Below, piece by piece: positions 25,808 to 48,036 of a stretch of DNA of 64,000 nucleotides. Numbering within the stretch: the first letter of the stretch is position 1; each line of letters starts with the position of its first letter. The translations under genes and the position numbers were made by a program. This DNA is from Beijerinckiaceae bacterium. Its GTDB lineage: Bacteria > Pseudomonadota > Alphaproteobacteria > Rhizobiales > Beijerinckiaceae. The DNA is taken from positions 1-64,000 of the forward strand of contig JAIETL010000027.1 of the NCBI GenBank assembly GCA_019745195.1, given 5' to 3'. The notes under the pieces were generated by a model, which was not told the DNA's origin, made no database searches, and saw only the letters and a list, made by a program, of their open reading frames with translations.

Positions 25808-27058
25808 ATGCGCAAGGCGCTTATGGCCGCTGTCGCGGCTTGCAGTCTGTTGGCGGCCTCGTCGGTCGCCAATGCTCAGGAAAAACTCAAGATCGGCGTG
25901 ATGGCGACGCTGTCGGGCGCTCTGACGTCCGGCGGCGAGGACGGCGTTCGCGGCGTCCAGATCGCGGCCAAGGAACTCGGCAACAAGCTCGGCGGACGCG
26001 AGTTCGAACTCATCGTCACAGCGACCGACGCCAGCCCGGATTCCGCGCTGCGCGCCGCCCGCAAGCTCGTCGAGCAGGACAAGGTGCAGATCATCATCGG
26101 GCCGCTCTCGGGCTCCGAGGGCATCGCCATGCGCGACTACAGCAAGACCGTGCCCAACCTCGTCATGATCAACGGCTCGTCTGGCGCGCTGGAAACCACC
26201 TTCGTCAACCCGTCGCCGAACTTCTTCCGCTTCAACAGCGACGGCGCGATGTGGATGGCGGGCCTCGGCGAATACGTGCTGAAGGACAAGGGCTACAAGA
26301 GGATCTCGATCATCGCCGAGGACTACTCGTTCCCCTACACGCAGGTCTTCGGTTTCGCGCTCGGCTATTGCCGCGCCGGCGGCCAGATCACGCAGCGTCA
26401 GTGGGTGCCGCTCGGCACCAAGGATTTTGGCTCGGTGATCGCCAACATCCCCGATGATGTCGACGCCGTCTTCCTCGGCCTCGGCGGCGGCGACTCGGTC
26501 AACTTCCTGAACCAGTACAGCCAGACCGGCGGCAAGGCCAAGTTCATCGGCGGTTCGATCATGGTCGACCAGACCGTGCTGTCGTCGAAGGGCGCGGCCA
26601 AGCGTCTGCTGGTCGGCACGCCCTCCTCGGGCGGCGTCGCCGACGCCTGGGACGATCCGCGCTGGAAGGCCTGGGTCAAGCTCTATCAGGAGAGCTTCCC
26701 GGCCGACAAGCGCTTCGCCAGCCCCTCGCTCTTCGCGACCAACTACTACAACGCCGTCAAGGCGCTGGCGATCGCGATGGACAAGGTCAAGGGCGACATC
26801 GCCGACGGCGGCGCCAAGCTGCGGGCCGAACTCGCCAAGGTCGAACTCGACGCGCCCAACGGCAAGATCAAGCTCGACGACAACCGGCAGGCGATCGCCA
26901 CGACCTTCATCACCGAAGTCGCGGAACTGCCGAACGGCGACCTGACGAACAAGTTCGTCCGCGCGGTTCCCGACGTGACGCAGACGCTGGGCCTGTCGCT
27001 CGATGCGTTCAAGGCGGTGGGCCTGCCGTCGCGCACCAATCCGGAATGCAAGCCGTAG
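25808..27058 (+). CDS. Branched-chain-type ABC transporter substrate-binding protein
   Basis: A 416-aa periplasmic binding protein of the LivJ/LivK type I fold. The signal peptide is 1-23 (MRKALMAAVAACSLLAASS...NAQ) and mature KLKIGVMATLSGALTSGGEDGVRG is the classic N-terminal strand-loop of HAAT binding proteins. The two lobes share the expected motifs VQIIIGPLSGSEG and DVDAVFLGLGGGDSV. A very strong Shine-Dalgarno (GGGAGGAA) lies 6 bp before the ATG. First gene of the long transport/catabolic run. The ligand is unknown; the downstream enzymes suggest an aromatic, heterocyclic or lactone/amide compound rather than an amino acid. The 284 bp upstream show no feature I can name. Confidence 0.9.
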   Translation: MRKALMAAVAACSLLAASSVANAQEKLKIGVMATLSGALTSGGEDGVRGVQIAAKELGNKLGGREFELIVTATDASPDSALRAARKLVEQDKVQIIIGPLSGSEGIAMRDYSKTVPNLVMINGSSGALETTFVNPSPNFFRFNSDGAMWMAGLGEYVLKDKGYKRISIIAEDYSFPYTQVFGFALGYCRAGGQITQRQWVPLGTKDFGSVIANIPDDVDAVFLGLGGGDSVNFLNQYSQTGGKAKFIGGSIMVDQTVLSSKGAAKRLLVGTPSSGGVADAWDDPRWKAWVKLYQESFPADKRFASPSLFATNYYNAVKALAIAMDKVKGDIADGGAKLRAELAKVELDAPNGKIKLDDNRQAIATTFITEVAELPNGDLTNKFVRAVPDVTQTLGLSLDAFKAVGLPSRTNPECKP

Positions 27059-27075
27059 GCGCCTCAAGCGTCCGT

Positions 27076-27111
27076 CGAAGGGGGAGAAACGCGAGATGCG
27101 CGCCCCCTTCG
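27076..27111. terminator. Hairpin after the binding-protein gene
   Basis: CGAAGGGGG (27076-27084) pairs perfectly with CCCCCTTCG (27103-27111), a 9-bp GC-rich stem starting 17 bp after the stop. No T-run follows. Such hairpins often protect the abundant binding-protein message and partly block read-through into the permease genes. Confidence 0.5.
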
Positions 27112-27223
27112 CCCCCTTCACACCCCGGCCTCTGGCGCCAGCGATCCGATATCGCGGCGCAAGGATGGTGGCTTGCCTGAAGAGGCAAAGCCTCTGCCGC
27201 CGGCCCCTGTTTCGCGAGGCGTC

Positions 27224-28114
27224 ATGAGTCGCGCAGTTGCGGTCTGCCACGGTCCATTCGGCAGGGTCTCGATCTATGATCTCGACCGCCCGCTGGTGCT
27301 GCACGCCCATCGCGAGGCGCACCTGATCTTCTTTCTCGAGGGGTCGCGCGGCCTCGTGAGCATCAAAGGCCGCTCGACGCTGGTCGATCCCTTCATGGGC
27401 GTCGCGATCAATCCCTGGGAGCCGCACAGTTTCCAGCCCGAACGCGCAGGCTCCTTTGGCCTCTTCCTCGTCGTCTATCTGAAGCCGGAATGGCTCGCGG
27501 CGCAGACCATGACACCGGCCGGAGCGCTCGCGTTTCCCGCCTCCGAGCTGGTCTTGACGCGAGAGCTCGCCTCTTGGCGTGACGAGGTCGTCGGCATGCT
27601 TATGTCTTCGCATCGCGAACTCAACCTGGAGCCGGTGCTGATGGCTCTGGCGCAGGCGTCGAGCGAGCCGATCGGCCTCGATCTCGCTTCCGCGCTGATC
27701 CATCTCGCGCCGAAAGGCGCGCTCGACCGCCGCGTGCTGCGCGCCCGCAGCCTCATCGAGGATCATCCGAGCCATGAGGGCGCGCTCGAACGCGTCGCCC
27801 GCGAGGCCGGGCTGTCGCGGGCGCATTTCTTCAAGCTCTTCCGCGAGCAGGTCGGCGTGACGCCGACCGTCTTCGCCAACACCGTCCGGCTCGACGCCGC
27901 GCTCGACCGCCTCGTCTTCTCGGGCGATCCGGTGACGCGTATCAGCCACGCGCTGGGCTTCTCCTGCCAGAGCGTCTTCACCCGGTTCTTTACCGCCCAT
28001 ATGGGCATGGCGCCGCGCGACTATCGCCGAGTCCTGCGGCGGGTCGGCCCGACGTCGCCACTTGCGAAGACGATCCTACCCGGCCAGATGGCGCTGAAGG
28101 CCTGCCATGTCTGA
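27224..28114 (+). CDS. AraC-family transcriptional regulator
   Basis: A 296-aa regulator. The N-terminal cupin sensor domain has RPLVLHAHREAHLIFFLEG and PFMGVAINPWEPHSF. The C-terminal double helix-turn-helix comes from about residue 195: ALERVAREAGLSRAHFFKLFREQVGVTP, then DPVTRISHALGFSCQSVFTRFFTAHMGMAPRDYRR. The ATG at 27224 has GAGG about 4 bp upstream; a TTG at 27173 is weaker. It sits inside the transporter operon, overlapping livH by 8 bp, so it is likely the pathway-specific regulator made together with the transporter. The cupin probably binds the substrate or an intermediate. Confidence 0.88.
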   Translation: MSRAVAVCHGPFGRVSIYDLDRPLVLHAHREAHLIFFLEGSRGLVSIKGRSTLVDPFMGVAINPWEPHSFQPERAGSFGLFLVVYLKPEWLAAQTMTPAGALAFPASELVLTRELASWRDEVVGMLMSSHRELNLEPVLMALAQASSEPIGLDLASALIHLAPKGALDRRVLRARSLIEDHPSHEGALERVAREAGLSRAHFFKLFREQVGVTPTVFANTVRLDAALDRLVFSGDPVTRISHALGFSCQSVFTRFFTAHMGMAPRDYRRVLRRVGPTSPLAKTILPGQMALKACHV

Positions 28115-29117
28115 TTTCGTCGCGCGCCGCCCGATCTGGTCGCTGGTCATCCTCGTCGCGGTCGCGCTTCTGCTCTGGCTCGTCTTCTCGGTCTGGACGC
28201 CGGGCATGGAGGCTGCGTTCGGCCGCAAGCGCGTCTTCCTGAGCGCCCTGTTCAACGGGATTACGCTCGGTGCGCTGTATTTCCTCGTCGCGAGCGGCTT
28301 CACGCTGATCTTCGGGCTGATGCGCAATGTCAACCTGGCGCATGGCTCGCTGTATCTGTTCGGCGGCTATCTCGGCTACAGCATCGGCGAACTGACCGGC
28401 TCCTGGCTGGTGGCGCTGCTGGTCGCCTTCGTCGTCGTGGGGCTGGTCGGCGTGCTGATGCAGGTCTTCCTGTTCCGCTGGATGGAAGGGCAGGACCTGC
28501 GGCAGACGCTGGTGACGATTGGCTTGTCGATCATCTTCGCCGACCTGCTGCTGTGGAGCTATGGCGGCGACACCTTTCAGGTGACGACGCCCGACTGGCT
28601 GTCAGGCCCCGTGACGCTGCCGCTCGCCGTCGCGCTGCGCAGCAATGGCGAGGCGGTGCTGATGACCTATCCGCTGGTGCGGATCGCGATCCTCGTCGGT
28701 GCGATCGTGCTGGGCGTGCTGATGTGGCTGGCGCTCAACCGCACGCGGGTCGGCATGCTGGTGCGGGCGGGCGTCGACGACCGCGACATGCTCTCGGCGA
28801 CGGGCGTGCGCGTACAACTCGTCTTCGTCATGGTCTTCGCTTTCGGGGCGGGGCTCGCCGGTCTCGCCGGCGTCGTCGGCGGCACCTTCCAGTCGCTGCA
28901 GCCGGGCGAGGACACCCGCATCCTTCTGTCATCGCTCGTCGTCGTCATCGTCGGCGGCATGGGCTCGATTCCGGGCGCTGCCGTCGGCGCGCTGATCGTC
29001 GGCCTCGCCGAGCAGTTCGGCTCGGTCTACATGCCGACCTATGCGGTGATGCTGACCTTCGTCATCATGGTGGTGGTGCTCGCGATCCGGCCGCAGGGCC
29101 TGGCGGCGAGGCGCTGA
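28107..29117 (+). CDS. LivH-type ABC permease
   Basis: A 336-aa inner-membrane permease of the branched-chain amino acid (HAAT) class. It has an extra N-terminal membrane helix (SLVILVAVALLLWLVFSV) and then the LivH core: FNGITLGALYFLVASGFTLIFGLMRNVNLAHGSLYLFGGY, the conserved N-L-A-H-G motif that defines the family. IVVIVGGMGSIPGAAVGALIVGLAEQF near the C-terminus is the usual coupling region. It overlaps the AraC gene by 8 bp and is followed 2 bp later by the LivM gene. It works with LivM, LivG and the fused LivF to import an unknown solute. Confidence 0.9.
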   Translation: MSDFVARRPIWSLVILVAVALLLWLVFSVWTPGMEAAFGRKRVFLSALFNGITLGALYFLVASGFTLIFGLMRNVNLAHGSLYLFGGYLGYSIGELTGSWLVALLVAFVVVGLVGVLMQVFLFRWMEGQDLRQTLVTIGLSIIFADLLLWSYGGDTFQVTTPDWLSGPVTLPLAVALRSNGEAVLMTYPLVRIAILVGAIVLGVLMWLALNRTRVGMLVRAGVDDRDMLSATGVRVQLVFVMVFAFGAGLAGLAGVVGGTFQSLQPGEDTRILLSSLVVVIVGGMGSIPGAAVGALIVGLAEQFGSVYMPTYAVMLTFVIMVVVLAIRPQGLAARR

Positions 29118-29119
29118 CG

Positions 29120-30205
29120 ATGGCCGTCGCGGACCTCAAGCTGGAGCAGCGCGCCCGCGCAACGGAGAGCCTCAGTGATTGGCTCGGACGGCGGGGAGCC
29201 GCGTTCTGGATCACCGCCGGGCTGCTCCTGGTGATGCCGGCGATAGCCAGCCCGTTCTGGCTGGTCCAGATCATCGCCTATGCGATGATTCTCGGCCTGG
29301 TGGCGCTGAGCCTGATGTTCCTGGCCGGCTATGGCGGCATCGTCAGCCTGATCCAGATGACCGTGGCGGGCTTCGCCGGCTATCTGGTCGCGATCCTGGG
29401 CGACAGCGCCATCGCGCAGATCAGCCTGAAATGGCCGTGGTGGACCGCCGCGCCCGTGGCTATCCTGATCGCGACTTTGTTCGGGACGCTCAGCGGCGCG
29501 CTCTCGGTCCGCACCGAGGGCATCTACACGATCATGATCACGCTCGCGATCGCCTCGGCGTTCTACTATCTGACGCTGCAGAACTACACGATCTTCAACG
29601 GCTTCAGCGGCTTCAACGGCATCGTTCCGCCGGTCTTCCTCGGCATCGACTGGGGTCAGAACCTGTCCTTCTACTATCTGACGCTGGCCTGCGCGACGCT
29701 GGCCTATGGCGCGGTCGTCTATGTTTCGCGCGCACCCTTCGGGCTGGCCCTGCAGGGCACGCGCGACAATCCGCGCCGGATGGCGGCGCTCGGCTTCGAC
29801 GTCGTCGCCCACCGGATCGGGGCTTACGCCTTCGCCTCGCTGATCGCGGCTTCAGCCGGCGTGCTGCTGGTCTGGTACCAGCGCCAGATCTCGCCCGGCA
29901 CCGCCGGCGTCGGCCCCGTCGTCGACATGCTGATCATCGCTGTCGTCGGCGGCCTGAGCCGTCCGATCGGCCCGTTCATCGGCGCGCTGGTCTATGTGCT
30001 GCTGCGGACCTTCTCGCTCGACGTGCTCGAGGGGCTGGGTCTCGACGGCCGGCGCTACCAGTTGCTGATCGGGCTCGGCTTCCTCGTCATCGTGCTGTTC
30101 TCGCCGGACGGACTGATCGGCATCTGGCAACGGCTGCGCGAGCGCTACCGCCGCAGCGCCGACACGCGCGACGCCCAGATGCGCAGCGGCGGAGGCTCGC
30201 CATGA
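29120..30205 (+). CDS. LivM-type ABC permease
   Basis: A 361-aa permease of the LivM family with about 9-10 hydrophobic segments. AYAMILGLVALSLMFLAGYGGIVSLIQMTVAGFAGYLVA is the diagnostic region, with a later GTRDNPRRMAALGFDVVAHRIGAYAFASLIAASAGVLL and the coupling segment IAVVGGLSRPIGPFIGALVY. It starts 2 bp after the livH stop and ends in an ATGA overlap with livG. Partner permease of the LivH-type protein in the same ABC importer. Confidence 0.9.
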   Translation: MAVADLKLEQRARATESLSDWLGRRGAAFWITAGLLLVMPAIASPFWLVQIIAYAMILGLVALSLMFLAGYGGIVSLIQMTVAGFAGYLVAILGDSAIAQISLKWPWWTAAPVAILIATLFGTLSGALSVRTEGIYTIMITLAIASAFYYLTLQNYTIFNGFSGFNGIVPPVFLGIDWGQNLSFYYLTLACATLAYGAVVYVSRAPFGLALQGTRDNPRRMAALGFDVVAHRIGAYAFASLIAASAGVLLVWYQRQISPGTAGVGPVVDMLIIAVVGGLSRPIGPFIGALVYVLLRTFSLDVLEGLGLDGRRYQLLIGLGFLVIVLFSPDGLIGIWQRLRERYRRSADTRDAQMRSGGGSP

Positions 30206-31026
30206 GCGCAGTCGCAGGCGCGATGGACCCGACCGCGACCCGCGAGCGCCTGACGGCAGCGGGGTCGGCCAATGCGCTCGAACTGCGCGGCGTCTCGCGG
30301 CTGTTCGGCGCGCTGGCGGCGCTATCGGATGTGACACTTTCGGTCAGGCCCGGCGAGCGCCGCGCCGTGCTGGGCTCGAATGGAGCCGGCAAGACGACCC
30401 TGTTCAACTGCATCACGGGCGATTTCGCGCCGAGCTCCGGCGTCATCCGCTTCTTCGGCGAGGACGTGACGTCGTTTCCGCCGCAGGAGCGGATCAGGCG
30501 CGGCCTGCGCCGCACCTACCAGATCTCCTCGCTCTTCGCCGGATTGTCGGTGCTTGACAACGTCTATCTCGCCTGCCGCGGCGTCTCGCGGAACCGGTTC
30601 TCGATGATCAGGCCGCGGCGCGACGATGCGCTGGTCCATGCAGCCGAGAGGCTGGTCGAGGCGGTTCATCTCTCGCCCGTCAGGGACAGGCTGGTCGGCG
30701 AACTGGCTTATGGCCAGCAGCGCCAGCTCGAGATCGCGCTGGCGCTATCGGGCGCGCCGCGCTTCATCCTCTTCGACGAGCCGGCGGCGGGCCTGTCGCC
30801 GACCGAGCGGCGCGACCTCGTCCATATCCTGACCTCGCTGCCGAGCCATATCGGCTACATCATCATCGAGCACGACATGGACGTGGCGCTGCGCGTCGTC
30901 GAGAGCGTGACGATGATGCACAACGGACGCATCTTCAAGGAAGGCCGGCCTGAGGATATCGAGACCGACCCGGAGGTCCAGGAGCTCTATCTCGGCGGTG
31001 GTCATGCCGGAGGCGGCCATGGCTGA
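30202..31026 (+). CDS. LivG-type ABC ATPase
   Basis: A 274-aa ATP-binding protein. Walker A is GSNGAGKTT; the Q-loop region contains RRTYQISSLFAGLSV as in LivG proteins. The signature is LAYGQQRQLEIAL, a relaxed form common in LivG, and Walker B is FILFDEPAAGLSP, with the switch His in IIIEHDMDVAL. The about 25-residue N-terminal extension before LELRGVSRLFG is longer than usual. It overlaps LivM by 4 bp and the next ATPase by 8 bp. It energises the importer with the LivF domain of the downstream fusion. Confidence 0.9.
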   Translation: MSAVAGAMDPTATRERLTAAGSANALELRGVSRLFGALAALSDVTLSVRPGERRAVLGSNGAGKTTLFNCITGDFAPSSGVIRFFGEDVTSFPPQERIRRGLRRTYQISSLFAGLSVLDNVYLACRGVSRNRFSMIRPRRDDALVHAAERLVEAVHLSPVRDRLVGELAYGQQRQLEIALALSGAPRFILFDEPAAGLSPTERRDLVHILTSLPSHIGYIIIEHDMDVALRVVESVTMMHNGRIFKEGRPEDIETDPEVQELYLGGGHAGGGHG

Positions 31027-33259
31027 ACGTCTCAAGGCCCCGCCCGGTGCCGGCGTCCCCATCCTGCAGATCGCGGGGCTCAACGTCTTCTACGGACGCT
31101 CGCATGCGGTACAGGGCGTCGATCTCACGCTGCACAGCGGCGTGCTGTCGGTCGTCGGCCGCAACGGCATGGGCAAGACGACCATGTGCAAGGCGATCAT
31201 GGGGCTAGTGCCGATCGCCTCGGGCTCGATCCGCTTCTTCGGCGAGGAGATCGCCGGGCGCGCGCCCGCCGAGATCGCGCGGCTCGGCATCGGCTACGTG
31301 CCGCAAGGGCGCAGGCTCTGGCGCTCGCTCACGGTCGACGAGCATCTGCGGCTGATGCAGCGGGGCAAGCGCGGGGCCTGGACGCCCGAGCGCATCTACG
31401 AGGTGTTTCCGAGGCTGGCAGAGCGGCGCAACAATGGCGGCGCGCAGCTCTCGGGCGGCGAGCAGCAAATGCTGGCGATCAGCCGCGCGCTCCTGATGAA
31501 TCCGCGCCTGCTGATCATGGACGAGCCGACCGAAGGCCTCGCGCCCGTGATCGTCGCCCATGTCGAGGAGATGCTGGTGCGCCTCGCCGAGCAGGGCGAC
31601 GTCGCGATCCTCGTCATCGAGCAGAATATCGGCGTCGCGACCGAAGTGTCCGACCCCGTCGCGATCATGGTCAACGGCCGGATCAACCGCATCATCGCGT
31701 CGGCCACGCTGGCGGGCGACCGCGACCTGCAGCAGCGCCTGCTCGGCGTCGGCCGTCACGGCCATGACGAAACGGACGGCGCGGCGGGCGGCGCGGAGAC
31801 GGGACGCGGTCCCTCGCCCGCCCCCGCTCCGGCCGCCGGCCCGACGCGGGTCTACAACGCCAACCCCGTCATCCCGACGCGCTGGTCTCAGCCCGTCCCG
31901 GCAGCCCGCATCGAGGCGCAGGCGCGCACGATCTCGCGGCCGACGCTGGCGACGCTGGACGGCCGCTCGGTCGGCGACCGGCGCGGCACGCCTGCGGTCA
32001 GCGCCGAGCCACATGTCATCGTCGTCGGCACGCTCGACACCAAGGGCGACGAGTTGCGCCATATCCGCGACCTGATCCGGGCCGAGGGCGTGCGAGCGCG
32101 GCTGGTCGACATCTCGACTTCGGGCCGGAGCGCCGGCGGGGACGTGACGCCGCAGGAGATTGCGCTCGCCCATCCGCGCGGCTCGGCCGGGATAGCGTCG
32201 GGCGATCGGGGGACGGCGGTCGCGGCGATGACCGAGGCGTTCGCGGCCTGGCTGCCGCGCCAGCAGGGCGTGTTCGGCGTGATCTCGGCCGGCGGCTCGG
32301 GCGCGACCGCGATGGTGACGCCGGCGATGCAGGCGCTGCCCGTCGGGCTGCCCAAATTGATGATCTCGACCATGGCCTCGGGCGACGTGCGCGCCTATGT
32401 CGGCGCGGCCGACATCACGATGATGCATTCCGTAACCGATGTGCAGGGACTCAACCGCGTCTCGCGGCTGGTGCTGGGCAACGGCGCGCGGGCGATGGCT
32501 GGGATGGCGAAGGCGCGGATCGCAGAGGTCTCCAGGCCTGCGCCTGCGCGGGGCGGCGAGCCCGAAAAACCGCTGGTCGGGCTGACCATGTTCGGCGTCA
32601 CGACGCCGTGCGTCCAGCAGGTCTCGAAGCTGCTGGAGGCCGAGTGGGAGCCGCTCGCCTTCCACGCCACGGGCACCGGCGGGCGGGCGATGGAGAAGCT
32701 GGTCGAGTCGGGGTTGGTCGGAGCCGTCATCGACGTCTCGACCACCGAGATCTGCGACATGATGATGGGCGGCCTGCTGCCGGCGACCGAGGACCGCTTC
32801 GGGGCGATCATCCGCACCCGCATCCCTTATGTCGGCTCGGTCGGCGCGCTCGACATGGTCAACTTCTTCGCGCCCGAGACGGTGCCGGAGCGTTATCGCG
32901 GCCGCAAGCTCTATCCGCACAATCCGCAGATCACGCTGATGCGCACCACGGCCGAGGAAAACGCCCGGATGGGGCGCTGGATCGGCGAGCGCCTGAACCA
33001 GATGGAGGGACCGGTGCGCTTCCTCATCCCGGAGCTTGGCGTCTCGGCGCTGGATGCGCCGGGACAGCCGTTCCACGACCCCGCGGCGGATGCGGCTCTG
33101 TTCCAGGCGCTGGAGCAGACGGTGCGCGCGAGTCCGAGCCGGCAGCTCATCCGCCTGCCGCATCACATCAACGACCCGGCCTTCGCGGCGGCAATCGTGC
33201 GGGAGTTCCGCGCGCTGCATGCCGGGCGGCGGCGCGAGCGCGCAGGAGGGCGGGCATGA
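31019..33259 (+). CDS. LivF ABC ATPase fused to Tm-1-like (UPF0261) domain
   Basis: A 746-aa fusion. Residues about 1-242 are a complete LivF ATPase: Walker [10 protein letters not shown] (47-55), signature LSGGEQQM, Walker [14 protein letters not shown] and the switch His region VIEQNIGV (Gln-Asn in place of the usual His). A Pro/Ala-rich linker covers about 243-329. From residue 330 runs a Tm-1-like/UPF0261 domain: [35 protein letters not shown], a [20 protein letters not shown] block and GMMFG-like [17 protein letters not shown] 31019 has GGAGG 6 bp upstream. The Tm-1 domain binds nucleotide in tomato Tm-1; its chemistry here is unknown. The fusion ties that domain physically to the transporter. 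Confidence 0.88.
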
Positions 33260-34137
33260 CCGCGTTCGACAAGAAGGCCCTGCTGAAGCGCTTCCGCGCC
33301 ATGGTCGCCAAGGGCGAACCGATCGTCGGCGGCGGAGCCGGCACGGGCCTCTCGGCCAAATGCGAGGAGGCCGGCGGGATCGACCTCATCGTCATCTACA
33401 ATTCCGGCCGCTACCGCATGGCCGGGCGCGGCTCGCTCTCGGGCATGATGCCCTATGGCGACGCCAACGCCATCGTCATGGAGATGGCGGCCGAGGTCCT
33501 GCCCGTGGTGAAGGCGACGCCGGTCCTCGCCGGCGTCTGTGGCACCGATCCGTTCCGCCGCATGGACGTCTTCCTCGACGAGGTGAAGCGCATCGGCTTT
33601 TCCGGCGTGCAGAATTTTCCGACGGTCGGTCTCATCGACGGCGTCTTCCGCAAGAACCTCGAAGAGACCGGTATGGGCTTTCGTCTAGAGGTCGAGATGA
33701 TCGCGCTCGCCAACGCCAAGGGCCTGCTGACCACGCCTTACGTCTTCTGCGAAGCCGATGCGCGCGCCATGGCCAAGGCCGGGGCCGACATCATCGTCTG
33801 CCATCTCGGCCTGACGACGGGGGGCGCGATCGGCGCGGAGACGGCGCTCAAGCTCTCCGACTGCCCGGCCCTTGTCGATGCATGGGCGGCTGCCGCGCTG
33901 GCGGTGAAAAAGGATGCGCTGATTCTCGTTCATGGCGGCCCGGTGGCCGAGCCGGCCGACGCCGACTTCATCATGAAGCACACGAAGCACTGCCACGGTT
34001 TCTACGGCGCATCCTCGATGGAGCGCCTGCCGGTGGAGACCGCGATCCGCGACCAGACGCAGGCGTTCAAGCGCATCGGGCGGAAGCCGGACGCCAAGAA
34101 GCCCGCCGCCAAGGCCGGCAAGGGCAAGAAGCCATGA
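33256..34137 (+). CDS. PEP hydrolase-family TIM-barrel protein (Tm-1 C-half homologue)
   Basis: A 293-aa TIM-barrel protein of the phosphoenolpyruvate hydrolase-like family (also annotated TIM-barrel signal transduction). The N-terminal [33 protein letters not shown] and later [16 protein letters not shown] and [23 protein letters not shown] blocks are characteristic. Plant Tm-1 carries a Tm-1/UPF0261 half followed by this same barrel; here the barrel is a separate gene in an ATGA overlap with the UPF0261-bearing gene, with AGGAGGG before its start. The C-terminal tail is Lys/Ala rich ([12 protein letters not shown]). The enzymatic activity is not established. Confidence 0.85.
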
Positions 34138-34145
34138 GGCCCCAT

Positions 34146-34283
34146 CCAACCCACGGCCCTCATCTTGAGGAGCGCCGCAGGCGCGTCTCGAAGGATCGTC
34201 CAGAAGGCTCCGGAGCGAGCTGGAGCATCCTTCGAGACGCGATTTCTCGCAAAATCGCTCCTCAGGATGAGGGCCGTGGGTGG
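34146..34283. repeat. Palindromic intergenic repeat, family A copy 1
   Basis: About 138 bp that folds on itself. The outer arms (left from 34146, right ending 34283) match over about 28 bp with two differences and include CCCACGG and CCTCATCYTGAGGAGCG. Inner arms GCGTCTCGAAGGAT and ATCCTTCGAGACGC are perfect over 14 bp. A second copy of the same family lies at 46240-46375. It fills almost the whole gap between the TIM-barrel gene and the flotillin gene. Confidence 0.9.
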
Positions 34284-34321
34284 CGGACCGGCAAGCCAGG
34301 TATCGACGGGAGGAAGATGAC

Positions 34322-41094: not shown

Positions 41095-41236
41095 GATGGC
41101 CCATGCGCGCGCCAGAGCCAGCCTCAGCCCGTCGACCGAATGGCTCTTCCCCTCCCCACGAGGGGGAGGGGAAGAGTTTAGTCGCCCAGCCGTCAAGCAC
41201 GGCAGGCGGCGCAGGGAAGGAGCGCTGAGATGGCCC
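41088..41236. repeat. Hairpin insert flanked by 15-bp direct repeat
   Basis: GCGCTGAGATGGCCC occurs at 41088-41102 and again at 41222-41236, i.e. at the 3' end of one half of the large subunit and at the start codon of the other. Between them lies a perfect 14-bp stem (41144-41157 with 41163-41176, loop ACGAG) of C/T-rich sequence followed by TTTA. The arrangement looks like insertion of a palindromic element with duplication of the gene-start junction. Confidence 0.75.
41144..41176. terminator. Perfect hairpin between large-subunit halves
   Basis: CTCTTCCCCTCCCC (41144-41157) pairs fully with 41163-41176 around a 5-nt loop, then TTTA. Strong stem with a weak T-run. It may attenuate transcription into the second half or protect the upstream message. 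Confidence 0.55.
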
Positions 41237-42273
41237 GTCATGAGGGGCGCGGCATGGCCTCGGTCAATTATCCCATCGGCATGAATCTCGGCGGCGATCC
41301 GAGCCAGGCGCTGATCCATTCCAACCCGGACGGCAAGTTCACCGTCGCGCTCTCGGCCATCGACCTCGGCCAGGGCATGAAGCAGGTCTCGCGCCAGATC
41401 GCGGCCGAGACGCTGGGCGTGCCGATCGAGGACGTCCATGTCGACACCGCCGACAGCGACACCGGCCCCCACGACATGGGGTCCTTCGCCTCGCGCGGCA
41501 CGCATCGCATGGGCAACGCCATCATCGTGGCTGCGCGCGAGGCGCGCGGCGTGCTGCTGGAGGCCGCCGCCGAAGAGCTCGAGGTCGATGCCGGAGACCT
41601 CGTCACCGACGGGCGCGGCAACATCCATGTCCGGGGCGCGCCGTCGCGCGCGATCACGGTCAAGGCGACCGCGCAGGCCGCGCAGTTCAAGCAGGGCAAG
41701 ACCATCGCCGGGCGCGGCATCTTCCTGATCCCGCTTTCGGCCGTCGACGCCGAGACCGGCGAGATGAACCCCAACACCGCCTTCGCCCATGCCTGCCTCG
41801 TCGCCGACGTCGCGGTCGACGACGAGACCGGCGAGGTCGAGGTGCTGCGGATGACCAGCGCCTATGAGCTCGGCCGGGTGATCAACCCGCGCATGGTCGA
41901 GCAGCAGCTCGTCGGCGGCGCCTGGATGGGCATGAGCCACGCGCTCTACGAGACGCCGGAGCCCTATTATCCGAACCCGGAGCATGGCCCGCGCGATTTC
42001 AACGAGTATCTGATGCCGGGGCCGGGCGAGATCGCGCCCTACCATGTCACCGTTCTGGAGCGGCCGGCCCCGGACGGCCCCTATGGCGGCAAGGGGCCGG
42101 GCGAGATGTGCGCCAATCCCGTGCTGCCGGCCATCGCCAACGCCGTCTACAACGCGGTGGGCGTCCGCGTGGACGAGCTGCCGATCACGCCAGAAAAGAT
42201 CCTGCGCGGCCTTCAGGCCAATGGCGGCGTCAAGCCCGGCCCGCGCCGGGGCGGCCCCGTGAACTGGCGGTGA
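41230..42273 (+). CDS. Molybdenum hydroxylase large subunit, C-terminal part
   Basis: A 347-aa protein equal to the second molybdopterin-binding half of CoxL/XdhA. VNYPIGMNLGGDPSQALIHSNPDGKFTVALSAIDLGQG matches the Q-x-x-x-x-x-A-Q-G motif region. DTGPHDMGSFASRGTHRMGNAI is the cofactor-binding loop, and GGKGPGEMCANPVLPAIANAV holds the conserved catalytic Glu (PGE). It has its own good ribosome binding site (AAGGAG) and start, so both halves can be made as separate chains forming a two-piece subunit. The C-terminal NAVYNAVGVRVDELPITPEKIL is the normal family end. Confidence 0.88.
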   Translation: MARHEGRGMASVNYPIGMNLGGDPSQALIHSNPDGKFTVALSAIDLGQGMKQVSRQIAAETLGVPIEDVHVDTADSDTGPHDMGSFASRGTHRMGNAIIVAAREARGVLLEAAAEELEVDAGDLVTDGRGNIHVRGAPSRAITVKATAQAAQFKQGKTIAGRGIFLIPLSAVDAETGEMNPNTAFAHACLVADVAVDDETGEVEVLRMTSAYELGRVINPRMVEQQLVGGAWMGMSHALYETPEPYYPNPEHGPRDFNEYLMPGPGEIAPYHVTVLERPAPDGPYGGKGPGEMCANPVLPAIANAVYNAVGVRVDELPITPEKILRGLQANGGVKPGPRRGGPVNWR

Positions 42274-42277
42274 CGGC

Positions 42278-43162
42278 ATGGCGCTGAGGACGACTGTCGC
42301 CGGCATATCGAGCCCCGAAGACCTCTCGGAGGCGCTGACGGCTGCGATGTATCTTGCCGATGACGGCATCGCGACCGCCGGCTATCTCGCGTTGGCGCTG
42401 GGCAAGCCGCTGCTGCTGGAGGGCGCGCCCGGCGTCGGCAAGACGGAAGCGGCAAAGGCCATCGCAGGCATCCTCGGCCGCCAGCTCATCCGGCTGCAAT
42501 GCTTCGAGGGCATCGACGCCTCGGGCGCGCTCTACGAATGGAACTACCCGCGCCAGATGCTGGCCATCAGGCAGGCGCGCGAGGGCGAAACGCTCGACAT
42601 CTACCGCGACGACTTCCTGATCGAGCGGCCGATGCTCAGCGTGCTGCGCCGGCCTGAGTCGACGGTGCTGCTGATCGACGAGATCGACCGCTCCGACCAT
42701 GAATTCGAGGCGTTCCTGCTCGAATTCCTCTCCGATTTCTCGATCTCGATCCCCGAGCGCGGCACGCTGCGGGCCGCCGAGCGCCCGGTCGTGGTGCTGA
42801 CCTCGAACCGCACACGCGAGTTGCACGAGGCGCTGCGCCGCCGCTGCGTCTACCACTACATCGCTTACCCTGAGCCCGAGCGCGAGGCGCAGATCATCAT
42901 GCTGCGATCCTCGGCCGTGGCGGAGGGTACGGCGCGCGCCGTCGTCCATGCCATCGGCCTGCTGCGGCAGGAGCCGCTGGCGAAGCCGCCGGGCGTCGCG
43001 GAGGCCGTCGACTGGGCCGAAGCCGCGACCGCTCTGGCGCAGGCGGGCGCGACTTGGCCCGAAGCCTTCCGCCGCTCGCTCGGCACCGCAATCAAGGACG
43101 AGGAGGATTTCGCCCATCTACGCCCGCGCCTGGCGCTGATCATTCCGGGGCTGGCGGCATGA
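42278..43162 (+). CDS. MoxR-type AAA+ ATPase (CoxD-like)
   Basis: A 294-aa AAA+ protein of the MoxR family. Walker A is EGAPGVGKT, Walker B LLIDEIDRSD, and sensor 1 VVLTSNRTRELHEALRRRC. Its FEGIDASGALYEWNYPRQML segment is typical of the CoxD subgroup, which assembles the active site of molybdenum hydroxylases together with a VWA protein. It starts 4 bp after the large-subunit gene. The CoxD-like assignment comes from sequence style plus context. Confidence 0.9.
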   Translation: MALRTTVAGISSPEDLSEALTAAMYLADDGIATAGYLALALGKPLLLEGAPGVGKTEAAKAIAGILGRQLIRLQCFEGIDASGALYEWNYPRQMLAIRQAREGETLDIYRDDFLIERPMLSVLRRPESTVLLIDEIDRSDHEFEAFLLEFLSDFSISIPERGTLRAAERPVVVLTSNRTRELHEALRRRCVYHYIAYPEPEREAQIIMLRSSAVAEGTARAVVHAIGLLRQEPLAKPPGVAEAVDWAEAATALAQAGATWPEAFRRSLGTAIKDEEDFAHLRPRLALIIPGLAA

Positions 43163-43206: not shown

Positions 43207-43360
43207 CCCCCTCTCCCCTTGCGGGAGAGGGTTGGGGTGAGGGGTCGCGCGACGCTGATCGTGAGCCGGCCCATATCCGAAACGAGATTTCAACGACCTG
43301 CGCGACCCCTCATCCGTCTCGGCTTCGCCGACCCACCTTCTCCCGCAAGGGGAGAAGGGG
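43207..43360. repeat. Palindromic intergenic repeat, family B
   Basis: Composite element with outer arms that are each hairpins: CCTCTCCCCTTGCGGGAGAGG (43210-43230) and CCTTCTCCCGCAAGGGGAGAAGG (43336-43358). GGGGTCGCGC (43241-43250) pairs with GCGCGACCCC (43300-43309). It occupies most of the 208-bp gap between the MoxR and VWA genes. The right end GGGGAG lies about 10 bp before the VWA start and acts as its Shine-Dalgarno. Confidence 0.85.
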
Positions 43361-43370
43361 AGCACGCCCC

Positions 43371-44483
43371 ATGATCGCCCCCCTCCCCTCCGCCGCGCGG
43401 CCCTTCGTCGCCTTCCCGACGCTGCTGCGCCAGCACGGACTCGCCGTCGCGCCCGAACAGACGGTGTCCTTCCTCGCGGCCATCGAACTGCTCGGCCCGC
43501 GCGGCATCGAGCCTATCCGCAAGGCGGCGGTCGCCACGCTCGCGCCCCATCCCGAGCAGCGCGCGCTGTTCGACGCGCTGTTCGACATGCATTTCCTCGG
43601 AGCGGTCGCCGAGCCGGGCGAGGAGGATTTCGCGCCCGACGACGAGATCGCGGTGCAGGAGGATTCGGGCTCGCGCGAGATCCTGGTCGGCGAGGACATC
43701 AACGAGACCGGCCAAGCCGCGACCGGCGCGGAGGCGCTCTCCGTGCGGGCCCTCCAGCCGCTCGACGAGAGCGAAACCCTGCGCCGCTTCGTCCGCGCAC
43801 TGCCGGCCGCCCTGCCCCGCCGGCGCGGCTATCGCCATCGCGCGGCGCGGCGCGGGCCGGACGTCGATCTCGCGCGCTCCTTGCGCGCCGCGATCCGCCA
43901 TGACGGCGAGGTGATGAGCCTGAAGAAGCTCCGGCGCGTGATGCGGCCGCGCCCGATCCTGCTCCTGATCGACGTCTCGGGCTCGATGAAGCAGCGCAGC
44001 GACGCCAATCTCGCGCTCGCTCATGCGATCGTGCAGACGGCCCCGCGCGCCGAGGTCTTCACCTTCGGCACGCCGCTGACGCGGGTGACGCGGGCGTTGC
44101 GTCGCAAGCGCCGCGAACAGGCGCTTGCCGACGCGTCGGGGCTCGTGGCCGACTGGGATGGCGGCACACGGATCGGCGACGCGCTGCAGGCCTTCCTCGC
44201 CGTGCCGCGCTTCGCGGCCTATGCGCGCGGCGCAGTCGTCGTCGTGCTGTCGGACGGGCTGGAGCGCGGCGATCCGGCGGCGCTTGTCTCGGCCGTGACG
44301 CGGCTGTCCGCCCGCGCGCATCGCATCGACTGGCTGACGCCGCTCGCAGCCGATCCGGAGTATCGGCCGGAAACCGAGGCGCTGCGGCTGATCGGCCCAA
44401 GTCTCGCCAGCCTCGGCGATGGCGCGAACACGGCGCGGATCTGCCGGCACATCCTCTCGCTCGGAGGCGCGGCAGCGGCATGA
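43371..44483 (+). CDS. VWA-domain protein (CoxE-like)
   Basis: A 370-aa protein with an N-terminal helical part and a C-terminal von Willebrand A domain. The MIDAS metal site is DVSGSM in ILLLIDVSGSMKQRSD, with GGTRIGDAL and VVVLSDGLERGD as later MIDAS loops. This is the CoxE family, partner of the CoxD-type MoxR ATPase in maturation of molybdenum hydroxylases. An Arg/Lys-rich stretch RRRGYRHRAARRGPD lies before the VWA domain. It overlaps the next gene by 4 bp (ATGA). Confidence 0.9.
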   Translation: MIAPLPSAARPFVAFPTLLRQHGLAVAPEQTVSFLAAIELLGPRGIEPIRKAAVATLAPHPEQRALFDALFDMHFLGAVAEPGEEDFAPDDEIAVQEDSGSREILVGEDINETGQAATGAEALSVRALQPLDESETLRRFVRALPAALPRRRGYRHRAARRGPDVDLARSLRAAIRHDGEVMSLKKLRRVMRPRPILLLIDVSGSMKQRSDANLALAHAIVQTAPRAEVFTFGTPLTRVTRALRRKRREQALADASGLVADWDGGTRIGDALQAFLAVPRFAAYARGAVVVVLSDGLERGDPAALVSAVTRLSARAHRIDWLTPLAADPEYRPETEALRLIGPSLASLGDGANTARICRHILSLGGAAAA

Positions 44484-45361
44484 CGGGACTCGTCGATTCG
44501 CATTTCCATATCTGGCGGCAGGCCGACTTGCCATGGCTTCTGGGCCCGATGCAGCCGCGCATCTTCGGCCCCTACGAGCCGATCCGGCGCGACTACCTCG
44601 TGACGGAATATCTCGCCGATTGCCGGCCTTCGGGCATCACGGAGGCCGTCTACGTCCAGGCCAACTGGGACCCGGCGCGGCATCTCGACGAGGTCGATTG
44701 CGTCTCGCAGGCGTCGGAGGAATCGGGCTTTCCGATCGCCATCGTCGCCTATGCCGACATGCTCGCCGAGGATGTGCGCCCGCAACTCGACGCGCTCGCG
44801 AAAAACCCGCGCGTTCGCGGCGTGCGCATGCAGTTGCACTGGCACGAGAACACGCTCTATCGCTTCGCCAGCGGCCCCGACCTGTGCCGCGAGCCGCATC
44901 TGCAGGCAAATATCGGCCGTCTCGCCGATTACGGCTTCAGCTTCGATCTGCAGGTTTTCGCCGGGCAGATGGACGGCGCGGCCGAGCTTGCCGCCGCCTG
45001 CACCGACGTGACCTTCGTGCTGCAGCATGCCGGCATGCTGGAGGATGTTTCGGCCGATGGCGTCGATGCCTGGCGTCAGGGCATGAGCCGCCTCGCCGCC
45101 CGACCCAACATCGTCAGCAAGCTGTCGGGACTGGGCACTTTCCTGCGCCGCAACGACCCCGAGCATATCCGCTTCGTCGCGAGCGAAACGCTGGCGCTGT
45201 TCGGGCCCGAACGCTGCCTGTTCGGCTCCAATTTTCCGATCGAGAAGCTCTGGACCAACTGCGGCGATCTGATCGACGCCCACCGCGCCGCCGTGCCGGA
45301 AAGCGCCCACAGCGCCGTGTTCAACGAAACCGCGAGGCGGGTCTACCGCCTGAACGACTGA
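44480..45361 (+). CDS. Amidohydrolase-2 family hydrolase (COG3618-type lactonase)
   Basis: A 293-aa TIM-barrel hydrolase of the amidohydrolase-2/L-fuconolactonase-like family. The N-terminal DSHFHIW metal motif is followed by VQANWD, GVRMQLHWHEN, a central FVLQHAGM His, and CLFGSNFPIEKLW at the barrel end. Asn stands where many relatives have Asp, as in several lactonases of the group. Likely hydrolyses a lactone or amide intermediate of the pathway. The start is coupled to coxE-like by ATGA, and a metallo-beta-lactamase-fold gene follows 19 bp later. Confidence 0.85.
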   Translation: MTGLVDSHFHIWRQADLPWLLGPMQPRIFGPYEPIRRDYLVTEYLADCRPSGITEAVYVQANWDPARHLDEVDCVSQASEESGFPIAIVAYADMLAEDVRPQLDALAKNPRVRGVRMQLHWHENTLYRFASGPDLCREPHLQANIGRLADYGFSFDLQVFAGQMDGAAELAAACTDVTFVLQHAGMLEDVSADGVDAWRQGMSRLAARPNIVSKLSGLGTFLRRNDPEHIRFVASETLALFGPERCLFGSNFPIEKLWTNCGDLIDAHRAAVPESAHSAVFNETARRVYRLND

Positions 45362-45380: not shown

Positions 45381-46229
45381 ATGGCGCTCGAAATCAAGAT
45401 ACTCGACTATGGCGACATCGAGCTGGAATCGAGCTTCCTCGTGCTGGGCCGCGATTGCGGCCGCACCCGGAGGGTGCCGACCTACGGCTTCCTGATCCTC
45501 GGCGGCCCCTGGCCGGTCGTGGTCGATACCGGCTATCGCCACAACCAGATCATGGAAAGCCTCGGCATGCGGGGCCTGCAGTTCCACGAGAACATGATCG
45601 AGAACCAGCTCTCCCGGCACGGCGTGCGGATGGGCGATGTGCGCTACGTCATGCACACCCATCTCCATATCGACCATGCCGGGAAGGACGAGCTCTTTCC
45701 GATGAACACGACCGTCATCGTCAACCGGCGCGAGCTGGAATACTCGGTCTCGGGCCTGATGCACCCGCAATATCCGGCCCCCGACATCAAGCACCTGATC
45801 GACCGGCTGCATACGCGCGACGCGCTGCGCTTCGAGGATCTGGAACTCTCGGGAATGATCGAGCTGTTTCCCGGCTGCTATCTGGAGGCGGCCGGCGCGC
45901 ATACCGAAGGCTCGATGAACGTGCATGTCGACACGGCGGAAGGCCGCGCGATCATCTGCGGCGACGTGATCTACGACTTCAACGATCAGATCGTGACGCC
46001 CTTCCACGAGCTCCAGGGCAACGAGCCACGCACCACCGGCAATCACGGCGTCTCGAAGCGGGAGGAGAAGGCGGCGATCAAGAAGCTGCTCTCGACAGGA
46101 AAGTTCCTGCTGCCGGTCCACGACAAGCCTGCCAAGATCGCCCATGGCCAGGTCGTCGGCCGGATGGACATGGCGGTTCCCGGCCCGGTGGTGCAGTCGC
46201 TGCCGCCGCGCAACTGGTTCGCGGCGTGA
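45381..46229 (+). CDS. MBL-fold metallohydrolase (N-acyl homoserine lactonase-like)
   Basis: A 282-aa metallo-beta-lactamase-fold hydrolase. The dinuclear zinc motif HTHLHIDHAG has H94-x-H96-x-D98-H99, then a downstream GAHTEGSMNV His and ICGDVIYDFND Asp, and a C-terminal His in LLPVHDKPAK. It fits the AhlA/AttM-like lactonase family, which includes many catabolic lactonases. In this operon a degradative lactonase is as likely as quorum quenching. GGGAGAACGATC before ATG 45381 is the ribosome binding site. Confidence 0.87.
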   Translation: MALEIKILDYGDIELESSFLVLGRDCGRTRRVPTYGFLILGGPWPVVVDTGYRHNQIMESLGMRGLQFHENMIENQLSRHGVRMGDVRYVMHTHLHIDHAGKDELFPMNTTVIVNRRELEYSVSGLMHPQYPAPDIKHLIDRLHTRDALRFEDLELSGMIELFPGCYLEAAGAHTEGSMNVHVDTAEGRAIICGDVIYDFNDQIVTPFHELQGNEPRTTGNHGVSKREEKAAIKKLLSTGKFLLPVHDKPAKIAHGQVVGRMDMAVPGPVVQSLPPRNWFAA

Positions 46230-46239
46230 TTTCCGCGAT

Positions 46240-46375
46240 CCCACCCACAGCCCTCATCCTGAGGAGGCCGCGCAGCGGCAGTCTCGAAGGATGCTCGAGA
46301 AAGCTCCCAAGATATCTGGAGGCTCCTTCGAGACGCCGCTGCGCGGCTCCTCAGGATGAGGGCGGAGGGTGCGGG
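46240..46375. repeat. Palindromic intergenic repeat, family A copy 2
   Basis: About 136 bp between the MBL and SMP-30 genes. Left arm has CCCTCATCCTGAGGAGGC and GTCTCGAAGGATG. The right arm has CTCCTTCGAGACGCCGCTGCGCGGCTCC and TCAGGATGAGGGC. It shares the outer CCTCATCCTGAGGAG / CTCCTCAGGATGAGG and inner GTCTCGAAGGAT arms with the copy at 34146-34283, while the connecting bases differ. Confidence 0.9.
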
Positions 46376-46422
46376 AATGTCGCCAAAATCAAACGGCTCT
46401 GCCTGTTCAACGCGGTGCTCAC

Positions 46423-48036
46423 ATGACAACCCACACAGCCATCCGCCCCGCCTTCGAGGAGTGCATCGATCTCTGGGCGCCGGTGCGCCAGCTCGGCTCT
46501 GGTTTCGAGTTCTGCGAGGGCCCGATCTGGCACCCGCGCGAACAGCATCTGCTGTTCTCCGACATGCCCGGCGACGTCCGCCGCCGCTGGGACAAAGGCG
46601 GCGTCCGCGAGGTCAAGCGGCCGGCCAACAAATGCAACGGCATGACCTATGACGCGGACCTCAACCTGATCGTCTGCGAGCATGCGACCTCGTCGCTGAT
46701 CCGCGAGCGGCCGGACGGACGGCGCGAGGTGCTGGCCAGCCATTTCGAGGGGCAGGAACTGAACAGCCCCAACGACGTGGTGGTGAAGTCCGACGGGTCG
46801 ATCTATTTCTCCGACCCCTGGTATGGCCGCATGCCGGTCTTCGGCGTCGAGCGCCCGCGCCAGCTCGGCTTCCAGGGCGTCTACCGCATTCCGCCCGGCG
46901 GCGGCGAACCGCAGCTTCTGGTCGACCGCTATCTCTTCGACCAGCCCAACGGCCTGTGCTTCTGCCCGACCGAGGACCGGCTCTTCGTCAACGACACGGT
47001 GCAGCACAACATCCGCGTCTTCCCGATCCTGCCCGACGGGCGGCTCGGGCCCGGGCGCATCTTCGCCTCAGGGATCGTCGGGTCCGAGCCCGGCGTGCCC
47101 GATGGCATGAAATGCGACGCACAGGGCAATGTCTGGGTCTGCGGGCCCGGCGGCGTCTGGGTCTATACGATCAAGGGCGAGTTGATCGGCAAGCTGCGCG
47201 TGCCCGAACTCGTCGGCAACCTGACCTGGGGCGGGCCGGACTGGCGCACGCTGTTCCTGACCGCGACGCATTCGCTCTATGCAGTGGAGACCAGGATCGG
47301 CCCGCGCCGCGAACCCTATATGAGGGCGAGCGGCGGAGGGCGCGACCGCAGCGATTCTGCACCGCAGCCGGTCTCGGGCGTCAGGCCCGCCGCGACGGTT
47401 GCCGCCAGCGGCGCGAAGAAGGCAGCCGGCGGCTACCGTCTCGATCCCGCGCGCTGCGCCCTGATCGTTCAGGATATGCAGAACGACGTCGTGATGGATG
47501 GCGGGGCCTTCGCCTCGTCCGGCTCGCCGGAGCACTGCCGGCAGCAGAACGCCATCGCCAACGCCGCGCGGCTTGCTCAGGCCGCGCGGTCGCGCGGTAT
47601 CCCCGTGATCCATGTCTGGTTCGTGGTCGAGCCCGGCGCGCCTGGCGTCACCCTGAACGCGCCGCTCTTCGAGGGGCTGGCCGACGCCAAGGCGCTGGTG
47701 CGCGGGACATGGGGCTCGGCTCCCGTGCCCGGGCTGGAGGCGCAAGCCGGCGACCACATCGTCGAGAAGAGCCGGATGAGCGCCTGGGAGGGCACGCGGC
47801 TGGAAACCGTGCTGAAGGCGCTGGGACGCGACGTCGTCATCGTCACAGGCGCATGGACCAACATGTCGATCGAGCACACGGCCCGCACCGGAGCCGACAA
47901 GGGCTACTTCATGCTCGTGCCGGAGGACGCCTGCTCGACCATGACCGCCGAATGGCACGCGGCCTCGGTCAACTACGCGCTGCAGAATGTCTGCGTCGTC
48001 ACGGATGTCGATGCGGTGATCGCCGCCATCACTTGA
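46423..48036 (+). CDS. SMP-30/gluconolactonase - isochorismatase-like fusion
   Basis: A 537-aa two-domain protein. Residues about 20-300 form a six-bladed SMP-30/gluconolactonase/LRE propeller: GSGFEFCEGPIWHPREQHLLFSDMPG, NSPNDVVVKSDGSIYFSDPWYG, DQPNGLCFCPTEDRLFVNDT, with conserved Glu, Asn and Asp metal ligands. After a low-complexity linker (about 305-345), residues 346-537 are an isochorismatase/cysteine hydrolase fold: LIVQDMQNDVV (Asp of the triad) and VEKSRMSAWEGT (Lys). The nucleophile position reads TNMSIEHTAR, with Ser where Cys is expected. Last gene of the run. Expected reactions: lactone opening plus amide hydrolysis, the latter doubtful. Confidence 0.87.
   Translation: MTTHTAIRPAFEECIDLWAPVRQLGSGFEFCEGPIWHPREQHLLFSDMPGDVRRRWDKGGVREVKRPANKCNGMTYDADLNLIVCEHATSSLIRERPDGRREVLASHFEGQELNSPNDVVVKSDGSIYFSDPWYGRMPVFGVERPRQLGFQGVYRIPPGGGEPQLLVDRYLFDQPNGLCFCPTEDRLFVNDTVQHNIRVFPILPDGRLGPGRIFASGIVGSEPGVPDGMKCDAQGNVWVCGPGGVWVYTIKGELIGKLRVPELVGNLTWGGPDWRTLFLTATHSLYAVETRIGPRREPYMRASGGGRDRSDSAPQPVSGVRPAATVAASGAKKAAGGYRLDPARCALIVQDMQNDVVMDGGAFASSGSPEHCRQQNAIANAARLAQAARSRGIPVIHVWFVVEPGAPGVTLNAPLFEGLADAKALVRGTWGSAPVPGLEAQAGDHIVEKSRMSAWEGTRLETVLKALGRDVVIVTGAWTNMSIEHTARTGADKGYFMLVPEDACSTMTAEWHAASVNYALQNVCVVTDVDAVIAAIT

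Follow-up and report, generated by a model that had tools for sequence, protein, structure and literature searches.

What brings a small-molecule importer, a flotillin, a molybdenum (Mo) hydroxylase and a set of hydrolases together in one run of genes, and do they act as one system? The question is raised by a locus on contig JAIETL010000027.1 of a Beijerinckiaceae bacterium (GCA_019745195.1), of which positions 1 to 64,000 (the window) were analysed, and where we count 19 co-directional genes on the + strand between 25808 and 48036. A preliminary description made from the sequence alone had placed there a HAAT importer with a Tm-1-like domain and a TIM-barrel Tm-1 partner, a giant flotillin, two SRPBCC proteins, a complete Mo hydroxylase with CoxD/CoxE-type maturation genes, and four hydrolase domains (amidohydrolase, metallo-beta-lactamase fold or MBL, SMP-30 and isochorismatase-like). 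Pfam recovers all of these domains at these coordinates and on this strand. The common direction of the genes also stands, but not the reported number of seventeen, as an AraC regulator and the splitting of the Mo-binding subunit had gone unnoticed. The cluster is real and widespread, and its parts, each of a known kind, form what appears to be an undescribed combination, marked by a class-specific tail on the N-terminal half of the Mo-binding subunit (CoxLn); a search of titles and abstracts in open-licence PubMed Central found the whole cluster described nowhere. Our leading reading, which we hold at even odds judging from the sequences, is that these genes form a single catabolic unit operating as a membrane-bound metabolon, in which the CoxLn tail would tie the enzyme to the flotillin or to the membrane. 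The genes follow one another in this order (Pfam matches with E-values in brackets):

25808..27058, + strand: LivK-type substrate-binding protein of the HAAT family (Peripla_BP_6, 3.9e-56)
27173..28114, + strand: AraC-family regulator, between LivK and LivH (HTH_18, 1.4e-21)
28107..29117, + strand: LivH permease (BPD_transp_2, 3.4e-33)
29120..30205, + strand: LivM permease (BPD_transp_2, 1e-30)
30202..31026, + strand: LivG ATPase (ABC_tran, 6e-27)
31019..33259, + strand: fusion of LivF ATPase, linker and UPF0261/Tm-1, here LivF-Tm1 (ABC_tran, 5.6e-26; UPF0261, 8e-59; UPF0261_C, 7.3e-91)
33256..34137, + strand: phosphoenolpyruvate (PEP)-hydrolase-like TIM barrel (TBST), partner of Tm-1 (PF09370, 4.5e-129; PDB 2p10, 2.4e-117)
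34322..37108, + strand: flotillin of 928 amino acids (aa) with a long coiled-coil repeat array (Flot, 2.1e-34; Band_7, 1.2e-17)
37121..37558, + strand: SRPBCC protein 1 (Polyketide_cyc2, 1.8e-28)
37563..38015, + strand: SRPBCC protein 2 (Polyketide_cyc2, 2.9e-19)
38017..38838, + strand: flavin adenine dinucleotide (FAD) subunit, CoxM-like (FAD_binding_5, 3.6e-28)
38850..39350, + strand: [2Fe-2S] subunit, CoxS-like (Fer2_2, 8e-30)
39343..41094, + strand: CoxLn, the NdhL-like N-terminal part of the Mo-binding subunit, bearing about 131 aa of Pro-rich tail (MoCoBD_1, 2.4e-65; best PDB chain 3hrd_A)
41230..42273, + strand: CoxLc, the NdhM-like C-terminal part of the Mo-binding subunit, carrying the active-site Glu motif GGKGPGE (MoCoBD_2, 1e-59; best PDB chain 3hrd_B)
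42278..43162, + strand: MoxR-type AAA+ ATPase, CoxD-like (AAA, 1.7e-12)
43371..44483, + strand: VWA protein, CoxE-like (VWA_CoxE, 8.2e-52)
44480..45361, + strand: Amidohydro_2 hydrolase (PF04909, 7.9e-38; DxHxHxW in 75/75 loci)
45381..46229, + strand: lactonase-like MBL hydrolase (PF00753, 4.4e-11; HxHxDH in 75/75 loci)
46423..48036, + strand: SMP-30/gluconolactonase fused to an isochorismatase-fold domain (SGL, 6.3e-48; Isochorismatase, 2.6e-47)

That these genes make up one functional unit, as the preliminary description supposed, is borne out by the conservation of the neighbourhood. An alignment scan of named genomes with CoxLc was examined for the best 80 of 366 relatives, and locus gene content and order were counted by tblastn; a simple gene caller misplaced some frames in GC-rich loci. 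In 59 of the 60 loci with enough flanking sequence, the run of 14 genes that begins with LivF-Tm1 and ends with SMP-30/isochorismatase is complete and in the same order, the sole exception (L148) having no recognisable Amidohydro_2. Two order breaks were seen among the 20 truncated loci: Amidohydro_2 is placed after SMP-30/isochorismatase in L120, and the SRPBCC 1 query is out of order at a contig end in L144, where the best-hit list contains only SRPBCC 2. Holders among the full-length relatives include Bosea, Bradyrhizobium, Xanthobacter, Phreatobacter, Jannaschia and Hoeflea, and strains in which the scan located the cluster include Bosea lupini LMG 26383, Xanthobacter tagetidis ATCC 700314 and Bradyrhizobium sp. 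BTAi1. The CoxLc of the window shares 98% identity with its counterpart in a Bosea metagenome-assembled genome. Across 199 genomes of the order, 28 possess a full-length fusion (at least 64% identity) and every one of them also possesses CoxLn (at least 63%). CoxLn at this level was further found in three genomes, each with a fragmentary fusion (G024, G114 and G078), and in none of the others (28/28 versus 31/199; Fisher p 4e-31, a value that overstates independence, the genomes being related). Even where the two halves of the system lie approximately 175 kb apart (G100) both are retained, so the lack of co-occurrence in other genomes that would have spoken against a unit was not observed.

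The complete arrangement, which we call class I, seems to have come about by the merging of two modules, since each of them is also found without the other. Module A comprises the importer, LivF-Tm1, the PEP-hydrolase-like TIM barrel, the flotillin and two SRPBCC proteins; module B comprises the split Mo hydroxylase, MoxR/VWA and Amidohydro_2; and class I is the sum of both plus the MBL and the SMP-30/isochorismatase fusion. Module A with no Mo enzyme nearby (class II) was found in six genomes (G085, G087, G092, G105, G050 and G131), with the TIM barrel in 5 of the 6, and two of them (G105 and G087) encode a tail-less sister Mo hydroxylase elsewhere in the genome. A further class II stretch lies on a plasmid of Variovorax paradoxus VAI-C (L175:993-13443), which like the window contains amidohydrolases, a HAAT importer, LivF-Tm1, TIM barrel, flotillin and two SRPBCC genes, but has no Mo hydroxylase, MoxR, VWA, MBL or SMP-30 among its annotated genes. 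Its second SRPBCC gene is long, as in G092, and the class II flotillin is shorter than that of class I. The Variovorax fusion is annotated as 'ABC transporter permease', and an aromatic-ring dioxygenase is encoded a few genes away. Module B without flotillin is represented by eight sister clusters (L227-L229, L231 and L244-L247) that possess the same split Mo hydroxylase, MoxR, VWA and Amidohydro_2, accompanied in 5/8 by SRPBCC and an AraC regulator similar to that of the window (32-33% identity), but no Pro-rich tail, flotillin or LivF-Tm1 fusion within the 20-kb stretch.

Outside the order the cluster is rare. At class level CoxLc matches were found in 8 of 385 genomes (E <= 1e-60), two of which (G392 and G484) have just the sister enzyme, and at phylum level in 16 of 398 (E <= 1e-100), all of the same class and five of them with the tail-less sister (G105, G671, G711, G807 and G859). 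The congener G902 gave no match, and the cluster is therefore patchy even within the genus. We also observed a class I cluster, from LivK to at least the VWA gene, on plasmid p1_Teo12 of Shinella zoogloeoides (L173), from which it follows that the cluster can be plasmid-borne.

Only in the merged form does the Mo hydroxylase bear the CoxLn tail, which in the window is Pro/Ala-rich (20% Pro versus 5% in the core) and ends in a short motif:

41062..41091, + strand: CoxLn terminal motif RFSSVFGRRR, conserved as RFSSxxGxRRR (75/75 loci)

The end motif followed by the stop codon is present in all 75 named loci holding both Mo halves, counted with the pattern RF, 1-8 residues and RR at the end; the consensus RFSSxxGxRRR was taken from the alignment first and counted afterwards with such loose patterns. 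The genome holds a single match to a degenerate DNA pattern encoding RFSS[VIM]FG, the one in CoxLn. Our master table contains 156 loci with a complete CoxLn end (some genomes being in both collections), 104 of which have at least 4.5 kb of upstream sequence. The motif, the flotillin and MoxR are all present in 92 of these 104 (88 distinct proteins), while the other 12 have neither motif nor flotillin, so that the tail accompanies 92/92 flotillin loci and 0/12 without. Tailed sequences (>500 aa) form one clade (109/109 distinct cores, support 1.0) with the 14 untailed ones outside it, and this tree indicates that the tail arose once, with one gain and no loss seen.

What, then, might the tail bind? 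It could be a maturation handle for MoxR/VWA in an ordinary operon of soluble enzymes and an importer, whose flotillin aids membrane fluidity or transporter stability, an explanation that we consider less probable than not by some way. The MoxR/VWA genes do lie directly 3' of CoxLc, and CoxD and CoxE are CO dehydrogenase maturation factors according to part of the text of PMC4240915. However, 8 of the 12 flotillin-less loci are sister clusters with MoxR and VWA that have no tail, which makes a general maturation handle unlikely, and the tail tracks the flotillin, though through one evolutionary event. Five of the 12 bear SRPBCC and likewise lack the tail, arguing against a general SRPBCC dock. 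The flotillin or its membrane domain thus appears to be the best remaining partner, but SRPBCC 2, the MBL and the SMP-30 fusion are tied to the same class and may equally be candidates.

The flotillin is the sole Flot match of the genome and belongs to the family by its SPFH/Band_7 and Flot domains, both above Pfam cut-offs, although it lies far from the curated FloT model NF058507 (40.7 bits versus a cut-off of 700). Its coiled-coil repeat array was found in 8 aligned class I flotillins and not in 7 aligned relatives without a Mo enzyme. A second class-specific motif, NPxxP[TN]RW, lies in the linker of the LivF-Tm1 fusion in 64/64 named loci and in 19/19 class I fusions fetched from the order, but in 0/7 other fusions, which have only PNRW- or TRW-like remnants; the six class II fusions tested all lack it (Variovorax was not among them). 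A strict expression had matched 35/64 loci, the looser form having been picked after the sequences were inspected. Together with the linker motif and the enlarged coiled coil, the CoxLn tail lends indirect support to the membrane platform invoked in the preliminary description, the binding itself being a prediction from sequence. Although speculative, it is possible that this is a flotillin dedicated to one pathway, where its enlarged coiled coil and two class-specific docking peptides, one at the end of CoxLn (RFSSxxGxRRR) and one in the LivF-Tm1 linker (NPxxP[TN]RW), would bring the importer and the enzymes together as one membrane body; we hold this version tentatively and would sooner doubt it than not. 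If true, it would provide defined client-recruitment motifs for bacterial flotillins. The cluster itself offers a natural system in which the wiring of a catabolic pathway to a membrane scaffold can be put to the test, its two short motifs being removable.

With regard to the enzyme itself, the FAD, [2Fe-2S] and MoCo domains and the glutamate of GGKGPGE, which we take to be the catalytic residue, place it in the xanthine oxidase family of Mo hydroxylases; GGKGPGE or GAKGPGE is present in 80/80 CoxLc relatives. The nicotinate dehydrogenase NdhFSLM of Eubacterium barkeri (3hrd) is the best PDB match for both Mo halves, and its Mo subunit is split between NdhL and NdhM at the same place, in a four-gene structure (PMC10331938, in part). 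The NdhL chain in 3hrd is 425 aa versus 583 aa for CoxLn here, and therefore has no such tail. We know of no MoxR/VWA, flotillin or Tm-1 genes beside those of NdhFSLM. The cox cluster of Oligotropha carboxidovorans resembles the window in having CoxM/CoxS/CoxL-type subunits followed by CoxD- and CoxE-like genes, but here the large subunit is split. Aerobic CO dehydrogenase was rejected as an identity (CoxLn 154-160 bits versus cut-offs of 991 and 950); the CoxLn loop TAMRGFG, placed by eye, has no Cys, in contrast to AYxCSFR, which we assume to be the CO dehydrogenase active-site loop. Elsewhere the genome encodes two matches to XdhC_CoxI.

Alternatively, the two SRPBCC proteins might shuttle a quinone or hydrophobic substrate from membrane to Mo enzyme or back, with the flotillin only gathering that lipid. 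For CoxG of O. carboxidovorans a role in the membrane recruitment of CO dehydrogenase has been proposed, and a coxG mutant grows more slowly (PMC4240915, in part). In five class II genomes the SRPBCC 2 counterpart is 500-511 aa long, and the copy scanned (G092) is fused to a quinone-reductase-like domain (a medium-chain dehydrogenase/reductase). On the other hand, the Pfam CoxG family is absent from the matches with E-values up to 5, which are all to Polyketide_cyc families apart from a single weak and unrelated one, and annotated SRPBCC genes also accompany Tm-1 and TIM barrel next to sugar importers in stretches that show no Mo enzyme. We regard such lipid or quinone handling as unlikely.

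Turning to the substrate, the preliminary description envisaged import, ring hydroxylation, lactone opening and amide cleavage; for an N-heterocycle (e.g. a pyridine or purine) this would mean uptake, hydroxylation of the ring and then cleavage of an amide. This route agrees with the nicotinate dehydrogenase likeness of both Mo halves and with the similarity of the isochorismatase domain to RutB and biuret hydrolase, although both models score under their cut-offs. However, in 93/93 sequences (81 by pattern, 12 by reading) this domain has Ser at what we take, matching by eye, to be the catalytic Cys position of isochorismatase-fold amidohydrolases (RutB, CSHase), which leaves the amide-cleavage step unsupported; because of this Ser, lactone or sugar-acid chemistry seems likelier than amide cleavage. 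The remaining hydrolases point the same way, with Amidohydro_2, MBL and SMP-30 all nearest lactonases. Amidohydro_2 is related to the L-fuconolactonase model NF052480 but falls outside it (95.8 bits versus a cut-off of 400), the nearest solved structures to the MBL are acyl-homoserine lactone and pyridoxolactone lactonases, and the SMP-30 domain is nearest gluconolactonases, with an EGPxW motif in 73/74 (the single miss is a shorter alignment of 326 residues). Furthermore, the three sister clusters read (L227-L229) adjoin sugar-type importers, two of them having 6-phosphogluconate dehydrogenase-type dehydrogenases and one having an epimerase, and four full clusters have an aldehyde dehydrogenase whose representative resembles the 2,5-dioxovalerate dehydrogenase model (512 bits versus a cut-off of 750). 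The ring hydroxylation step is weakened by these sugar-type importers, the fuconolactonase-like Amidohydro_2 and the dioxovalerate-dehydrogenase-like gene, and the N-heterocycle route as a whole now appears decidedly improbable.

Combining these findings, we infer tethering, induction, an order of reactions, roles for Tm-1 and the TIM barrel and a lactone or sugar-acid-like substrate class. In the metabolon, the HAAT-type (amino-acid/aromatic-acid) ABC importer would bring in a small molecule, its LivF ATPase being covalently joined to the Tm-1/UPF0261 domain, which presumably works with the PEP-hydrolase-like TIM barrel. The nicotinate-dehydrogenase-like split Mo hydroxylase, matured by MoxR/VWA, would oxidise the substrate; the lactonase-type hydrolases (Amidohydro_2, MBL and SMP-30) may open cyclic esters, and the Tm-1/TIM-barrel pair may carry out an ATP-dependent step. 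The operon's own flotillin would serve as scaffold, and the Pro-rich CoxLn tail ending in RFSSxxGxRRR would tether the enzyme to the flotillin or to the membrane that it organises.

Several points weigh against the metabolon. One locus (L211, in a 71%-complete genome and outside the 104 loci, with too little upstream sequence) has a Pro-rich tail and an RRR end but no RFSS, and whole CoxLn length shows no correlation with flotillin length (rho 0.06, 16 genomes). Since a single branch gained both the tail and the flotillin, their perfect association amounts to one event, and SRPBCC 2, the MBL, SMP-30/isochorismatase or the fused linker would suit the role of tail partner about equally. Being basic, the tail might also bind lipid directly. 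The relatives of LivK (best PDB chain 4zpj, next 4ey3, the latter presumably an aromatic-acid binder) and of the Mo subunit indicate aromatic or N-heterocyclic ligands, not sugars. Finally, the open-licence PubMed Central literature found on Tm-1, available in part, gives no enzyme activity for it.

The importer is complete for a Liv-type (HAAT) system, with a binding protein, two permeases and two ATPases all found. A urea transporter was rejected as its identity, scores being far under the curated cut-offs (62 bits versus 493 for the UrtA model on LivK). LivF-Tm1 is the sole UPF0261 match of the genome and a Tm-1/UPF0261 member by both UPF0261 domains, its likeness to PDB 3wry (2.3e-96) and the adjacent TBST gene. 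Co-evolution of the Tm-1-like/TBST pair is reported in part of PMC5028733, where the UPF0261 domain is called uncharacterised and the two genes stand side by side as here; the difference in the window is that UPF0261 is fused to an ABC importer ATPase. The cluster also offers a handle on the chemistry of this pair. Plants carry Tm-1/TBST as a tomato mosaic virus resistance protein.

How tightly are the genes packed, and where does the cluster end? The 18 junctions consist of 6 overlaps, 7 gaps of 1-19 bp and 5 gaps of 114-208 bp, and do not conform to the earlier picture of mostly 1-8 bp overlaps. Three of the gaps contain palindromes:

34138..34321, no strand: gap of 184 bp with a palindrome, by eye like the repeat at 46244-46371 (only the 46244 copy served as query against the genome)
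41095..41229, no strand: CoxLn-CoxLc gap of 135 bp, with a small palindrome by eye
46244..46371, no strand: palindromic repeat in the MBL/SMP-30 gap, with 80 genome matches over both strands, about 40 places

The MBL/SMP-30 and CoxLn-CoxLc gaps look like insertions into a tight operon, because the former contains a genome-wide repeat copy and the latter is only 1-2 bp in 71/75 relatives; the remaining gaps were assessed by eye only. With regard to independent promoters, a sigma-70 consensus scan of 25400-45000 gave 0 sites versus a mean of 1.2 in shuffles, and is uninformative in this GC-rich genome. The next genes in the window, HAD (48115) and MetZ (48955), had no match at E 1e-15 across the 80 loci, which makes 48036 the true border.

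Some minor features of the flanks and of the relatives are also recorded. The flanks (24810-25523 and 48115-50148) carry a diguanylate-cyclase-like open reading frame (by eye), the HAD hydrolase and the MetZ-like enzyme (by eye). Eight genomes of the order have an iron-type alcohol dehydrogenase (Fe-ADH)-like gene between LivK and AraC, and four (G037, G040, G080 and G115) have a 2,5-dioxovalerate-dehydrogenase-like aldehyde dehydrogenase (ALDH) upstream of AraC, with LivK not in view (for such upstream genes of either kind see L032:955-2010 and L048:413-1843); in the window the LivK-AraC gap is 114 bp and holds no Fe-ADH-like or ALDH-like gene. Six other plasmid records contain Tm-1 and the TIM barrel in varied neighbourhoods, judged by annotation. 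Three comprise a sugar importer without SRPBCC, SRPBCC without an adjoining importer, and neither (one each). In the other three (L174, L178 and L179) Tm-1, TIM barrel and SRPBCC have sugar ABC importer, Gfo/Idh/MocA and cupin genes as neighbours, together with a second, longer PEP-hydrolase-family protein.

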